Source of the DNA: Candidatus Nitrosotalea bavarica
GTDB lineage: Archaea > Thermoproteota > Nitrososphaeria > Nitrososphaerales > Nitrosopumilaceae
NCBI RefSeq assembly: GCF_900167955.1
Contig: NZ_FUYK01000004.1
Coordinates: 1-35,974, forward strand
Length of the DNA: 35,974 nucleotides
Reading direction: 5' to 3'
Shown: positions 6,599 to 11,872 of the stretch, piece by piece
How positions within the stretch are numbered: position 1 is the stretch's first letter
Layout: every line of letters starts with the position of its first letter
Made by a program: the position numbers and the translations under genes
The notes under the pieces: generated by a model
What the model saw: only the letters and a program-made list of their open reading frames with translations
Databases searched by the model: none
What the model was told of the DNA's origin: nothing

Positions 6599-6760
6599 AT
6601 GTCAGTAGATGTTGTTTGTGGAAAATGTGGAGCTAAAATTGCAAACATGCGCATGCTAAAATCAATAAAAGATGTAATGAGACCGTATAACAGTAAATGT
6701 CCATCATGTGGACAGAGTTTATCTCCATCTGAATTTAGTGTGGATGTACAGAAAAACTGA
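6599..6760 (+). CDS. Small zinc-ribbon protein, 53 residues
   Basis: An ATG frame encodes 53 residues with two CxxC knuckles: C7/C10 (VVCGKCGAK) and C34/C37 (SKCPSCGQS), separated by a basic, Met-rich helix-like linker. This is the pattern of a free-standing zinc ribbon. A well-placed TATA box precedes it, and it fills the gap between DUF35 and the nrdJ-linked regulator, 68 bases before the latter. It may bind nucleic acid or act as a small protein partner; nothing in the sequence says which. The short length means automated gene finders may miss it. Coding character rests on the paired cysteines and promoter spacing. Confidence 0.7.
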   Translation: MSVDVVCGKCGAKIANMRMLKSIKDVMRPYNSKCPSCGQSLSPSEFSVDVQKN

Positions 6761-6801
6761 TCTAAAAAGCTTCCGTAGAGATCAAACCAGTCAAAAATCT
6801 T

Positions 6802-6826
6802 AATTACCGATGCCAATTAGGTAATT
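6802..6826. promoter_or_regulatory. Inverted repeat over promoter of the NrdD-like regulator
   Basis: Perfect 7-bp arms AATTACC (6802-6808) and GGTAATT (6820-6826) flank an 11-base spacer and end two bases before the ATG at 6829. The left arm overlaps the TTAATTA element that would be the TATA box about 26 nt before the start codon, and the right arm covers the expected transcription start. This is the position of a repressor operator, and the downstream gene encodes a winged-helix protein, so autoregulation is a reasonable inference. Confidence 0.45.
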
Positions 6827-6828
6827 CC

Positions 6829-8925
6829 ATGGAGCTAAGTGAAGACTTTGGAGATCCAAAACGTGGTGGAATATTACAATCAGCATCAAAGCGTGTAAGA
6901 ATGATCTTCTCTGTTATGGCAAGTCCAAACAGAATTGATATTTTACGTATCTTAAACTCAAAAGGACCTCTTACTTATTCTGAACTAAAATCTCTAGCTG
7001 GCTTTAAATCAAAAAAGGAAAGTGGCAAGTTTGCATATCATTTAAGAAAATTACTAAGACAATCTCTTGTAGCTCTAAACAAGTCTGAAAGAAGATACAC
7101 AATTACTAATTTAGGAAAACTAGTCCTAAGTCTTGCAAGACAGATCGAAGAGCGATCTATCATCGAGAGCGGTAAAATGTATGTACGAACTTCACATGAA
7201 TCAATAGAAGAGTTCAACTCCCATAAGATTATCCAATCCCTCGTTCGCGAAGGCAGCCTTCCACTTGAGCTTGCCCAAAAGATAACTGAGGAAGTAGAAA
7301 ATAGAATATACAAATTCCAGACATCTTACCTTACATCCTCACTCATACGTGAGATGGTCAACTCTGTACTCTTGGAACAAGGCCACGAAGATTATAGGCA
7401 CAAACTTGCAAGATTTGGATTACCTGGCTATGATATTCATGAGTTGTTGACCAACGTAGATGGTATACATAATGGAGTAGAGGGTCTATTGTTTAAAACG
7501 GGACAAACAGTATTTGGCGAATATCTTGTATTAAACACATTACCAAAGGACGTTGCTGACTCTCATCTCTCAGGAGATCTTCATATCACAAATGCCGGAT
7601 TATGGTCGCTTCTTCCAGATACCATATTTGTAAACATTAAGGAACTTATAGAAGATGGTGTTGATCTGAGAGGAAAATTCTTGGGTGTTACAAGAACATC
7701 ACCACCAAATTCACTGGATGATCTTTTCACATCTATGTCTCTATTGACAAGTCTTCTCATAAAAGAAGCATCACAAGAAGTAGTAATGGATGGATTAGTT
7801 GCTGTATTACAAAAATATTCCAAGAATTTGTCTGAAATTGAAGAAAAACTTGCAAGCTGCTTTGCAAAAATATCTACAGGACCCAAATATGGAAAGAACG
7901 GAACACTCACTTCATTTAGAATTTCTATTGGAACAGAACCAAAATTAGTTAATACTATTCTTCAAGCCTACAAGAAATATGTAAAGTCAACACCAATTCC
8001 TTCAATAGGATTGATAGTTGATTATGAAAAAGCCAAGATAAGTGACTATTCAGAAATTCTGGCAGATATAATTGCATTAGGAGGACACATTATGTTTGCT
8101 AAAGGCTTGGTATCTAACAAAGGCTTGGCACGAATAGATGCAAAGAACGTCGGAACAACCTCTATCAATTTAGAATCTCTATCAATCAATATGCCAAGAT
8201 TGGCCTTTGAATCTAACAAAGATGAAACCTATTTCAGAGCAAGACTTGCACTATTGATGAAACCCGCACTTGCAGCCATGTCTTTAAGAAAGAAGGAAAT
8301 ATCTGATCTAACAAGACGTGGTCTTAATCCAATTCTTGCAAACAATACTCAGTATATGCAAAAGGGATCAGTAACTCTAGTTGTTAATCTAATAGGACTC
8401 AAAGAGGCAGTTTATGGTATTTTAGGATTCGAAAACAACAAGGCTGGACAGGAAATCCTGGCTAAAGTGATAAACACTGCTATGGAAGTAGCCACAAAGA
8501 AAGGAAAGGAAATGGGAGATAATGTTATTGTAACTATGACTGAAAGTGATGCAGCAAGCCGTTTCTCATCTCTTGATGGTGAAAAATATGGTAAGACATC
8601 AATTAATCAACATGTAATGGGCGAGTCCTATTCAGAAGGAATTGTACTTGATGCCTCTGAGATAGCAGAGATGAACCCTAAGAATGAAAAGATTGTAGAA
8701 TCAAACTATTTCTCAAAGATACTCAACGGTGGATTACTAGTTCAATTAAAGATCCCAGATACAATGGATTCTTCGGGAATTAAGAAGGCAATTGAAAAAG
8801 CAGGAGATCTGTTAGGATCTTTCAGACCAATAAGAAAAGTACCTATATGTAGTAACTGCGGTCTCAAAGAAGAAAAGATCGCAGAAAAATGTTCAGTATG
8901 CAAGTCACCTTACATACTTGCATAA
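6829..8925 (+). CDS. Winged-helix / ATP-cone / NrdD-like protein lacking catalytic residues; putative RNR regulator
   Basis: The 698-residue protein has three parts. Residues about 22-105 form an ArsR-like winged helix (MASPNRIDILRILNS, then a recognition-helix stretch ending HLRKLL). Residues about 117-200 match the ATP-cone nucleotide-binding fold (IEEFNSHKI, later IREMVNSVLLEQG). Residues about 205-660 follow class III anaerobic ribonucleotide reductase (HLSGDLHI at 246-253, then SDAASRFSSLDGEKYG and YSEGIVLD). The C-terminus keeps the NrdD zinc site (C674/C677, C688/C691) but stops before the RxxGYLG glycyl-radical loop, and the only other Cys in the chain is in LASCFAKIS, so the thiyl and redox cysteines are missing. 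It therefore cannot reduce ribonucleotides. Together with the DNA-binding domain and its place upstream of nrdJ, this suggests a (d)NTP-sensing transcription regulator; that role is inference. Confidence 0.85.
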   Translation: MELSEDFGDPKRGGILQSASKRVRMIFSVMASPNRIDILRILNSKGPLTYSELKSLAGFKSKKESGKFAYHLRKLLRQSLVALNKSERRYTITNLGKLVLSLARQIEERSIIESGKMYVRTSHESIEEFNSHKIIQSLVREGSLPLELAQKITEEVENRIYKFQTSYLTSSLIREMVNSVLLEQGHEDYRHKLARFGLPGYDIHELLTNVDGIHNGVEGLLFKTGQTVFGEYLVLNTLPKDVADSHLSGDLHITNAGLWSLLPDTIFVNIKELIEDGVDLRGKFLGVTRTSPPNSLDDLFTSMSLLTSLLIKEASQEVVMDGLVAVLQKYSKNLSEIEEKLASCFAKISTGPKYGKNGTLTSFRISIGTEPKLVNTILQAYKKYVKSTPIPSIGLIVDYEKAKISDYSEILADIIALGGHIMFAKGLVSNKGLARIDAKNVGTTSINLESLSINMPRLAFESNKDETYFRARLALLMKPALAAMSLRKKEISDLTRRGLNPILANNTQYMQKGSVTLVVNLIGLKEAVYGILGFENNKAGQEILAKVINTAMEVATKKGKEMGDNVIVTMTESDAASRFSSLDGEKYGKTSINQHVMGESYSEGIVLDASEIAEMNPKNEKIVESNYFSKILNGGLLVQLKIPDTMDSSGIKKAIEKAGDLLGSFRPIRKVPICSNCGLKEEKIAEKCSVCKSPYILA

Positions 8926-9214
8926 CTCTCACCTTAGGAAAGATTGATAATCCAATTAAAATTTTTTAATCAAACTAAACTTTTATTTGAATTTTTAATG
9001 CATAATTCTTTAAACTATTATTTATGATCCAAGGTCTAGACTAGAAATTTGATCTTAGGCATGGATTAAATTTTTATGTATAGTTCTTCAAATGATCTCA
9101 TACTATGAAAATCGTAATGGTGTCAACAAAATTGATCCAAAGTTTAGCTTTAGAAAATTATTTTTTGCCGCAGTGTTTATTTAACTCCCATTTGATAGGG
9201 GTACGGGGAGTAAG
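8926..9214. promoter_or_regulatory. Upstream region of nrdJ with a duplicated two-part motif
   Basis: This 289-base gap contains no credible gene. Two blocks occur twice in the same order. Block 1 is AATTTTTAATGCATAATTCT (from 8990) and its variant AATTTTTATGTATAGTTCTT (from 9070). Block 2 is GATCCAAGGTCTAGAC (from 9026) and GATCCAAAGTTTAGCT (from 9134), each followed by AGAAA and T-rich DNA. Spacing between the blocks is 36 bases in the first copy and about 64 in the second. Such a diverged duplication in front of nrdJ suggests binding sites for a regulator, possibly the adjacent winged-helix protein. Confidence 0.4.
9205..9210 (+). promoter_or_regulatory. Shine-Dalgarno-like site deciding the TTG start of nrdJ
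   Basis: GGGGAG lies four bases before the TTG at 9215. Few genes in this window have such a strong purine-rich site; it supports TTG as start and indicates a leadered transcript, unlike many neighbours. Confidence 0.5.
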
Positions 9215-11872
9215 TTGACAGATTTTTCACAAATAGAGAATACGATCCTTCAAGTAAAGAAGCGCGACGGTCGAGTATCAAATTTCCAAAGAGATAAAAT
9301 TTCAGGCGCGATATACAAAGCACTCGTAGCTTGCGGAAGATCAGATCATGGATTGGCAGACAAGCTTGCAAATCATGTTCTCACAAAACTTGTCAATCGT
9401 GGATTTTCTGGTTCAGAAGCACCAAGCGTAGAAGATGTTCAGGATATGGTAGAGTCTACTCTAATTGAAGAAGGACTAGGAGAGATCGCAAAGGCGTACA
9501 TCCTGTATAGACACGAACGAAGAAGAGTTAGAGAAGAAAAAATGAAGGTTCTAGAATCAAAGGCTCTTGATAATGTAGCAAAAAAATTCGATCTTAATTG
9601 CTTACGAGTTTTAGCATCGAGATATTTACTTAGAAATAACAAAGGTCAGATAACTGAAAGTCCAGGTGAAATGTTTGAAAGAGTTGCAATTCTTGTAGGT
9701 ATTGCTGATATCATAAGAGATTCATCTGTATTTCAAATTGAAGGTGGTTATACTCATAGTGTAGAAGAGGCAGCAAAGTATCTAGAGAAACTTGATGACT
9801 TTGACTATAAATTCAAAGTAGGAAAATACTATCTAAACAAGTATCACTTTAGATCATTGATAAATCACTATATTGATTTAGAAAAACATGGCCAGATGAA
9901 AGTAAGCTTCCGTGAACTATTGACTATGTTGGCTGCAAATAAGTTTGAACAATATGCCGAAAGAATCCAGGAATATACTGATCTAATGATTGCTCAGGAC
10001 TTTCTACCAAATTCACCAACTATGATGAATGCTGGTGCAAGATTGGGACAACTTTCTGCATGTTTTGTCCTAGCAATGGAAGATGACATGGAAAGGATAA
10101 TGAAATCATCTTCTGATGCAGCATTGATTTTTAAGTCAGGTGGAGGAGTTGGTATCAATTATTCTGATTTAAGACAAGAAGGAGATATGGTGGCATCAAC
10201 ATCTGGAGTAGCCTCAGGTCCTGTCTCCTTTATGAGTATAATCAATACTGTTACTGAAGTAGTAAAACAAGGCGGAAAAAGAAGAGGTGCAAACATGGGA
10301 ATCATTGAAGCATGGCACCCAGATGTTGAGAAATTCATCACCGCAAAAACAAAACCAGGAGTTTTAGAAAACTTTAATGTAAGTGTAGGAATTTGGGAAG
10401 ACTTTTGGGAAGCACTAGTTAATTCAGAGGATGGAAAATTCGTTCTTCGAAGTCCAAAAGAAAGAACTCCTGTAAGAGAAATAAATGCACATAATCTAAT
10501 TGACTTGATTGCACTTTCTGCATGGAAAAGTGGTGAACCGGGACTGATCTTCTTTGATATTATAAACAAATACAATGTATTTGCAAAAGCAAGAGGTGGA
10601 CCAATCAGAGCTACAAACCCATGTGGAGAACAAAGTCTCTATCCGTATGAATCATGTAATCTTGGTTCAATCAATCTATCTAACTATGTCAAGAGAAAAG
10701 CAGACGGTCAATACGAATTTGATTGGCAAAGATATGAAGAAACAATAAGGAAAACAACAAGATTCCTTGATAATGTAATTGATGTTAACACATATCCAAT
10801 TCCAGAAATTGATAAGGCATCTAAAGATTCACGAAGAATCGGACTCGGAGTAATGGGAGTTGCTGATCTCTTATTCAAATTAAGAATTCCATACAATTCT
10901 CAAGAAGGATATGAATTCCAGGAGAAACTTGCTGAAGCATTAACATATTATTCAATGGAAGAAAGTATCGCACTTGCAAAGACACGAGGACCATTCCCAC
11001 TGTGTTCAAAAACAGAATATCCAGAAGCTAAGATTCCTATTGCCGGATATTATGAGAAACCAAAGAGTGCGCGTACTTACGATTGGGATGCTTTGATTGC
11101 CAAGATTCAGAAACATGGCATTAGAAATGTTCTAACAACTACAGTTGCTCCTACTGGTACGCTATCAATGATAGCTGATTGCTCAAATGGAATGGAACCA
11201 ATGTTTGCCTTGGTCTTTGAAAAGAGAGTAACAGTAGGCAGATTCTTCTATACAAACAAAATATTTGAAGCAGTACTCAAAGAGCATGGACTATACAACG
11301 ATCAGATTCTAGAGAAGATTGCAAATAACTACGGTTCTGTCAAAGGAATTGCTGAGATTCCAGAATGGATCCAGAAGATATTTGTCACAGCAATGGACAT
11401 TCACTGGGCAGACCATCTAATGGCTCAGGGAGTGTGGCAAAAATGGATAGGTAATGCAATTGCAAAGACAATCAATATGCCAAGTGATGTCTCATCTGAT
11501 GATGTAAAAGCTGCATATCTATTAGCACATGATCTTGGTTTGAAAGGAATTACTGTATTTAGAGATGGTTCAAGACATGAACAAGTGTTACACATGACTG
11601 GAAAGGATGTTCAAAAGAATTTCCAAGTGACTCCAAGTCCATTTGTTACAGATTATATCTCAAAGAATGTCACAAACGCATATCTAAAAGCTGAGATAGA
11701 AAGAGCACTTCAGATAAAAATTCCAGATAATGTAGTGTCTGCTCAAATACCAGCACTTACACCAGAACAAATGGAAGAGAGACTCTGTCCTACATGTAAA
11801 AACAACTTGGTATTTGCAGAAGGATGTAGTGTATGTATTGAATGTGGATACAGCGGTTGTACATCCGGCTAG
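9215..11872 (+). CDS. nrdJ: Adenosylcobalamin-dependent (class II) ribonucleotide reductase
   Basis: This 885-residue enzyme converts ribonucleotides to deoxyribonucleotides using a B12-generated thiyl radical. An ATP-cone occupies residues about 10-105 (VKKRDGRVSNFQRDKI...YILYRHERRR). Catalytic residues are present: thiyl C470 (NPCGEQ), and redox pair C283 (LSACFVL) and C481 (ESCNLGSIN). The 11-residue gap between C470 and C481 matches the family. Nucleotide/phosphate loops (SGGGVGINY, TTVAPTGTLSMIAD) are also intact. The C-terminus has cysteines (LCPTCKNN...CIECGYSGCTSG) forming a zinc site and re-reducing pair. TTG start is supported by the GGGGAG site. The dead NrdD-like gene upstream probably regulates it, and the cobalamin genes near 34-36 kb supply its cofactor pathway. 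Confidence 0.96.
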   Translation: MTDFSQIENTILQVKKRDGRVSNFQRDKISGAIYKALVACGRSDHGLADKLANHVLTKLVNRGFSGSEAPSVEDVQDMVESTLIEEGLGEIAKAYILYRHERRRVREEKMKVLESKALDNVAKKFDLNCLRVLASRYLLRNNKGQITESPGEMFERVAILVGIADIIRDSSVFQIEGGYTHSVEEAAKYLEKLDDFDYKFKVGKYYLNKYHFRSLINHYIDLEKHGQMKVSFRELLTMLAANKFEQYAERIQEYTDLMIAQDFLPNSPTMMNAGARLGQLSACFVLAMEDDMERIMKSSSDAALIFKSGGGVGINYSDLRQEGDMVASTSGVASGPVSFMSIINTVTEVVKQGGKRRGANMGIIEAWHPDVEKFITAKTKPGVLENFNVSVGIWEDFWEALVNSEDGKFVLRSPKERTPVREINAHNLIDLIALSAWKSGEPGLIFFDIINKYNVFAKARGGPIRATNPCGEQSLYPYESCNLGSINLSNYVKRKADGQYEFDWQRYEETIRKTTRFLDNVIDVNTYPIPEIDKASKDSRRIGLGVMGVADLLFKLRIPYNSQEGYEFQEKLAEALTYYSMEESIALAKTRGPFPLCSKTEYPEAKIPIAGYYEKPKSARTYDWDALIAKIQKHGIRNVLTTTVAPTGTLSMIADCSNGMEPMFALVFEKRVTVGRFFYTNKIFEAVLKEHGLYNDQILEKIANNYGSVKGIAEIPEWIQKIFVTAMDIHWADHLMAQGVWQKWIGNAIAKTINMPSDVSSDDVKAAYLLAHDLGLKGITVFRDGSRHEQVLHMTGKDVQKNFQVTPSPFVTDYISKNVTNAYLKAEIERALQIKIPDNVVSAQIPALTPEQMEERLCPTCKNNLVFAEGCSVCIECGYSGCTSG

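Follow-up and report, generated by a model that had tools for sequence, protein, structure and literature searches.

A candidate transcription regulator of ribonucleotide reductase genes in Nitrososphaerales, probably derived from a catalytically dead class III reductase

The window, i.e. the whole analyzed stretch of 35,974 nucleotides from Candidatus Nitrosotalea bavarica, contains a gene whose product is likely a DNA-binding transcription regulator of ribonucleotide reductase (RNR) genes, derived from a dead catalytic subunit of class III RNR (NrdD) and accompanied by a candidate operator (Table 1). We will call this protein the regulator, and Nitrososphaerales the order. Its role in RNR regulation had been proposed in an earlier, sequence-only reading of the window, and the proposal is now supported, at the level of sequence comparison, by near-universal linkage to RNR genes in the order together with a conserved palindromic operator candidate.

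Table 1. Features of the regulator-nrdJ region, with coordinates in the window
Feature	Coordinates	Strand	Basis or remark
Regulator gene: winged helix, ATP-cone, catalytically dead NrdD-like body, zinc site	6829..8925	+	698 aa ORF; Pfam, AlphaFold2 model, fold search
Winged helix-turn-helix domain, residues about 21-105	6889..7143	+	77% identical on average in pairwise comparisons within the order
Codons 58-75, GFKSKKESGKFAYHLRKL, probable recognition segment	7000..7053	+	99.5% identical in 24 sequences of 17 families
ATP-cone domain, residues about 117-200	7177..7428	+	Pfam and alignment
NrdD-like barrel body without redox or thiyl cysteines	7429..8838	+	Pfam, alignment, fold search
Zinc site C674-x2-C677...C688-x2-C691	8848..8901	+	Protein ends 7 residues later; no glycyl radical loop
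nrdJ, adenosylcobalamin-dependent (B12) ribonucleotide reductase, presumed target	9215..11872	+	Sole PF02867 gene found in the genome
Candidate operator GTCAACAAAATTGAT in the nrdJ promoter region	9122..9136	.	Core conserved in relatives
Weaker candidate at the regulator's own promoter, GTCAAAAATCTTAATTAC	6790..6807	.	Block GTCA.AA.TCTTAtTTAC conserved in 110 relatives

The architecture of the protein agreed with what had been described from the letters alone, namely a winged helix, an ATP-cone, an NrdD-like body and a zinc site. All four Pfam matches exceeded their gathering scores: DUF7347 (40.8 bits, cut-off 27.6, E 2.7e-10) and HTH_20 (32.6 bits, cut-off 27, E 7.6e-8) for the winged helix at residues 26-100, PF03477 (39.8 bits, cut-off 25.8, E 6.6e-10) for the ATP-cone at residues 117-189, and the NRDD family over the body (86 bits, E 3.1e-24). 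Among NCBIfam models, the NrdD equivalog TIGR02487 reached just 76.8 bits against a cut-off of 326, and the NrdR model TIGR00244 gave no match in a scan of the protein, which has the winged helix in place of the zinc ribbon. An AlphaFold2 model built with 24 relatives as input (pLDDT 79.7) displayed the helices and wing strands expected of a winged helix, and when this model was used as a query, the 36 best fold matches in the PDB were class III RNRs (9d3x with E 3.8e-21, also 4coj and 1hk8). Both the NrdD-type ten-stranded barrel and the four-cysteine zinc site were present. There are five cysteines in total, those of the zinc site (674, 677, 688 and 691) and Cys344, the single one that had been noticed outside it. 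Likewise, nrdJ starts at the previously given distance of 289 bp downstream of the regulator gene. Just 5' of the latter, a 53-aa zinc-ribbon ORF is located on the same strand (6599-6760, MSVDVVCGKCGAK...SKCPSCGQ...); its 3' half is conserved in Nitrosopumilaceae, its matches to DZR/zinc-ribbon models are weak, and it is possibly co-transcribed with the regulator.

To locate the catalytic residues, the regulator family was aligned with five true NrdDs from neighbouring archaeal loci. The redox cysteine (RP[FY]C) and the active-site CC pair were found in all five of these, and an RVTGYY-type radical loop in four, the fifth sequence being cut short. In members of the order, the redox-cysteine position is mostly occupied by T and the CC pair by R, V or N followed by S, and the protein ends right after the zinc site, so that the radical glycine loop is absent. 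This confirmed the absence of both the glycyl-radical loop and the thiyl/redox cysteines that had been reported for the window. In distant members from other classes, the loop is often recognizable, with its glycine replaced by N, A, T, S, P or L; two of them (L193 and L194) retain the glycine but have D and Y-N where the cysteines belong. Altogether, neither the two catalytic cysteines nor an intact radical site, for which homologues were to be inspected according to the sequence-only reading, occurred in any of the 45 aligned regulators. An active NrdD was rejected on account of these missing residues. The idea of a working, if unusual, anaerobic RNR that merely happens to bear a winged helix would account for the NRDD match above its gathering score, the class III fold and the retained zinc site, but it would have to do so without cysteines and radical loop in every member of the order and with a body scoring far under the NrdD equivalog cut-off; given also the state of the distant loops, where even the two glycine keepers lack the cysteines, we regard it as having practically no chance of being correct. 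It follows that NRDD-family matches in genomes of ammonia-oxidizing archaea and their relatives should not be taken as evidence of an anaerobic RNR. The four zinc cysteines were present in all 16 aligned members of the order and are lost in genus g29; in one regulator of this genus (L210 of genome G167), the zinc-site tail is entirely missing, so that the site is apparently dispensable there.

The DNA-binding head has remained under strong constraint. Across 24 sequences from 17 families, mean pairwise identity was 77% in the winged helix and 68% in the ATP-cone, as compared to about 33% and 40% in the two halves of the body. Within the head, residues 58-75 form an ultra-conserved segment, which is probably the recognition segment. 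Constraint this extreme points to a fixed DNA target.

In every one of the 30 loci of the order that had enough flanking sequence, the gene next downstream of the regulator, in the same orientation, encodes an RNR (gaps of 38-511 bp). The same holds for 27 of 30 regulator loci from further genomes, where the three exceptions comprised a contig end (L247), a broken frame (L249) and one case that was not resolved (L235). Region L207, which had been taken at an incorrect coordinate, was left out. The downstream NrdJs were diverse: they belonged to several subfamilies, and some were only ~30% identical to the product of nrdJ in the window and matched other NrdJ models best. As the linkage survives replacement of the neighbour, it points to control of the RNR locus and not to partnership between proteins. 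Nevertheless, one could argue that the protein acts on RNR directly, by binding NrdJ or its nucleotides, and that its DNA-binding head serves autoregulation only, since the gene keeps its place before RNR whichever type of RNR protein is encoded there, and a large nucleotide-binding body has been retained. We find this very unlikely: the head is the most conserved part of the protein, the palindrome described below also occurs ahead of RNR (in 16 of 27 held-out regions), and a conserved protein interface is hard to expect because the RNR partner can be as little as ~30% identical.

The expected conservation of the gene-RNR linkage therefore proved essentially universal in the order, but in other classes of Thermoproteota the regulator is often not beside RNR. 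Outside the order, it adjoined RNR in six of about 33 loci (NrdD in five, NrdJ in one), and the linkage was rejected as a phylum-wide rule. In ten loci from these other classes (L173, L174, L177, L179, L180, L183, L187, L190, L191 and L205), the regulator is convergent with pyrB, encoding aspartate carbamoyltransferase, and pyrI lies near the pair in most of them. The gene for dCTP deaminase adjoins the regulator in L186 and L206, and NAC genes are found near it in some loci outside the order.

A palindrome, GTcAAaNNNNtTTgAC, was detected upstream of both regulator and RNR genes by a de novo motif search, in which palindromic expectation-maximization was applied to 52 upstream regions (29 of regulators, 23 of RNRs); its log-likelihood was 98, as compared to 22-26 for shuffled sequences. 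Because the pattern had been spotted by eye before this search, a held-out test was performed on 30 genomes. In these genomes, which were outside the training set but from the same order and families and hence not fully independent, a score of 11.2 bits or more was attained upstream of 13 out of 29 regulator genes and 16 out of 27 RNR genes, but in just one of the 139 promoters of other genes that served as controls (Fisher 1.0e-10 and 2.7e-14, respectively). The presence of a conserved palindrome upstream of both genes lends computational support to the predicted DNA binding.

The possible regulon was probed by genome-wide pattern searches. In G411 (1.8 Mb), GTYAAN6TTRAC occurs twice in the entire genome, once immediately 5' of the regulator (17512) and once in the gap that separates it from RNR (19669). 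Five other genomes contained it 1-10 times, and the regulator promoter was among the matches in three of them. In family f10, where the site takes the form GTTAAATACTTTTGAC, eight of the nine exact matches to GTYAAANNNNTTTRAC in 13 genomes were situated at the regulator promoter. Such a locus-specific palindrome, positioned before the regulator's own gene, is the usual sign of an autoregulated local regulator. In several families (L044, L035 and L041), no more than about 33 bp separate the site from the start codon of the regulator; an archaeal TATA box or transcription start is expected in this region, so that occupation of the site would block initiation; autorepression is thus the simplest reading. 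The RNR sites are located farther upstream than those at regulator promoters, and the sign of the putative effect there is a separate matter. Eleven nrdJ genes that were unlinked or came from genomes in which no regulator was found, all with enough upstream DNA and with start codons called mechanically, mostly had control-like scores (10.2 bits at most). Several genomes of the order carry a second, unlinked nrdJ (L282-L292) without a strong copy of the palindrome, which may for that reason escape the regulator's control.

In other Thermoproteota classes, no shared operator was found, and the palindrome search returned a TATA-like TTTAAA for the regulator. Another palindrome, ttTgAgGatCcTcAaa, precedes unlinked nrdD genes of these classes (L251-L280) and may be an artefact of the close relatedness of the sequences. 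The missing shared operator, together with the frequent convergence with pyrB or proximity to dCTP deaminase outside the order, could mean that the palindrome belongs to another transcription factor and that the regulator binds elsewhere or controls a broader set of genes, for example those of pyrimidine synthesis. However, many families of the order have the palindrome ahead of the regulator gene, and in several genomes it is nearly confined to the regulator locus when the whole genome is searched; we consider a different cognate factor unlikely.

In Nitrosopumilaceae, the family to which the window belongs, the nrdJ site has the 15-bp form GTCAAN5TTGAN. Its GTCAA-N5-TTGA core is kept in about 100 of 108 nrdJ upstream regions of the family, while the spacer is variable. 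This 14-base core is by no means confined to the nrdJ site, with 43 matches in G000, and its genome-wide uniqueness in this family was accordingly rejected. A clear copy of the palindrome was not found in Nitrosopumilaceae before the regulator itself; the conserved block at its promoter is not clearly palindromic and may include the TATA box. The DNA element to which the sequence-only reading had drawn attention, an inverted repeat at 6802-6826, had to be abandoned as an operator, as it is not conserved among 110 relatives.

As for nucleotide sensing, ATP-cones contact nucleotides through a V-x-K-R motif and through arginines of the C-terminal helix (PMC9110341, PMC11226230); the K-R pair makes nucleotide contacts in the ATP-cones of both NrdR and PcNrdD, and the helix arginines contact phosphate in PcNrdD (PMC11226230). 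The regulator retains V119 and the helix arginines, with the canonical K-R pair changed to T-S, and because of this change we can only infer that ATP/dATP is sensed. The resulting VRTS form is shared with one of the neighbouring true NrdDs (L185), and this, together with helix arginines kept as in PcNrdD, makes nucleotide control plausible, also by analogy to NrdR (PMC9110341).

We propose a model in which an NrdD acquired a winged helix at its N-terminus and ceased to carry out radical chemistry. The resulting protein would dock as a dimer, with two winged helices, onto the palindrome (in Nitrosopumilaceae, its 15-bp form), both ahead of RNR and, for many families of the order, at the promoter of the regulator. 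The ATP/dATP or dNTP state would be read by the ATP-cone, with a possible contribution of the former specificity and substrate sites in the body, and would in turn set DNA binding, with high dATP most likely leading to repression of RNR.

Among 209 genomes of the order that were of good quality, 204 contained the regulator. Members of the order in the phylum sample contained no true NrdD and no bacterial-type NrdR above the respective cut-offs. The scope assumed previously, Thaumarchaeota, thus held for the order but turned out to be too narrow, the family being older and spread to other classes of Thermoproteota. Relatives in these classes are ~550-860 aa long; they have the same head, and their bodies are likewise dead, with the radical loop surviving in vestigial form. 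Many of them reside in one genome with a true NrdD encoded elsewhere, and some adjoin a true NrdD. In an unrooted maximum-likelihood tree, one branch with 100/99 support separated all 18 true NrdDs from all 45 regulators, which is consistent with a single origin of the regulator family. A distribution complementary to that of NrdR across the phylum was considered and rejected: the order is devoid of NrdR, yet genomes of family f18 (e.g. G333 and G285) contain both the regulator and an NrdR above cut-off, so that there is no simple mutual exclusion. By coordinates, no more than about 1 kb separates the NrdR of f18 genomes from a true nrdD. Phage records contained no match to the regulator, and the sole match in plasmid records was a Methanomethylovorans gene annotated as nrdD. 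Two further occurrences are probably of technical origin. The draft genome G013 contains two regulator-nrdJ pairs (L055 and L056), 98% and 69% identical to the regulator of the window, and is probably a mixed bin; a 70% identical archaeal copy in a record named Phycisphaerales bacterium MAG (L142) is a probable contamination. On balance, we lean towards the broader view that the regulator family is ancestral to several Thermoproteota classes, reads the dNTP pool through the ATP-cone and perhaps the old body sites, so that possibly all four dNTPs are weighed, and represses RNR, having arisen separately from NrdR.

Our literature searches found no description of this protein. With it, ammonia-oxidizing archaea, which are among the most abundant organisms on Earth, gain a candidate RNR regulator and a named operator, and this bears on how archaea without NrdR adjust their dNTP supply. 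If the proposed function is true, this would be, as far as we could find, the first case of a catalytic subunit of RNR giving rise to a transcription regulator, and it would illustrate how in nature an allosteric enzyme can lose its catalysis and serve purely for sensing. Another dead RNR protein that has taken on a new role is UL45 of cytomegalovirus, an inactive homologue of the cellular large subunit which inhibits host signalling; no DNA-binding role is described for it there (PMC5469499). NrdR, the bacterial and rarely archaeal RNR repressor, acts at RNR promoters on palindromic DNA elements and is frequently autoregulated (PMC9110341). The regulator resembles it in the combination of a DNA-binding head with an ATP-cone, in palindromes upstream of RNR genes and in candidate autoregulation, judged here from sequence. 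The two differ in that NrdR is about 150 aa long, with a zinc ribbon as its head and no RNR body, whereas the regulator combines a winged helix with a complete, dead NrdD; if the model is correct, the regulator would be an archaeal answer to NrdR that was reached independently, as had been suspected. With NrdD itself (TIGR02487, PF13597), the regulator shares the ATP-cone, barrel body, zinc site, fold and domain order, but it has an added winged helix, lacks the thiyl/redox cysteines and the radical glycine, and is parted from NrdDs by the well-supported branch mentioned above; its ancestry lies among NrdD-type proteins, yet by catalytic criteria it is no NrdD. Finally, PurR of Bacillus subtilis consists of a winged helix on an inactive phosphoribosyltransferase, and thus also joins a DNA-binding domain to a dead enzyme domain of the pathway it controls. 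The enzyme family and the pathway are different, and the likeness is one of design.
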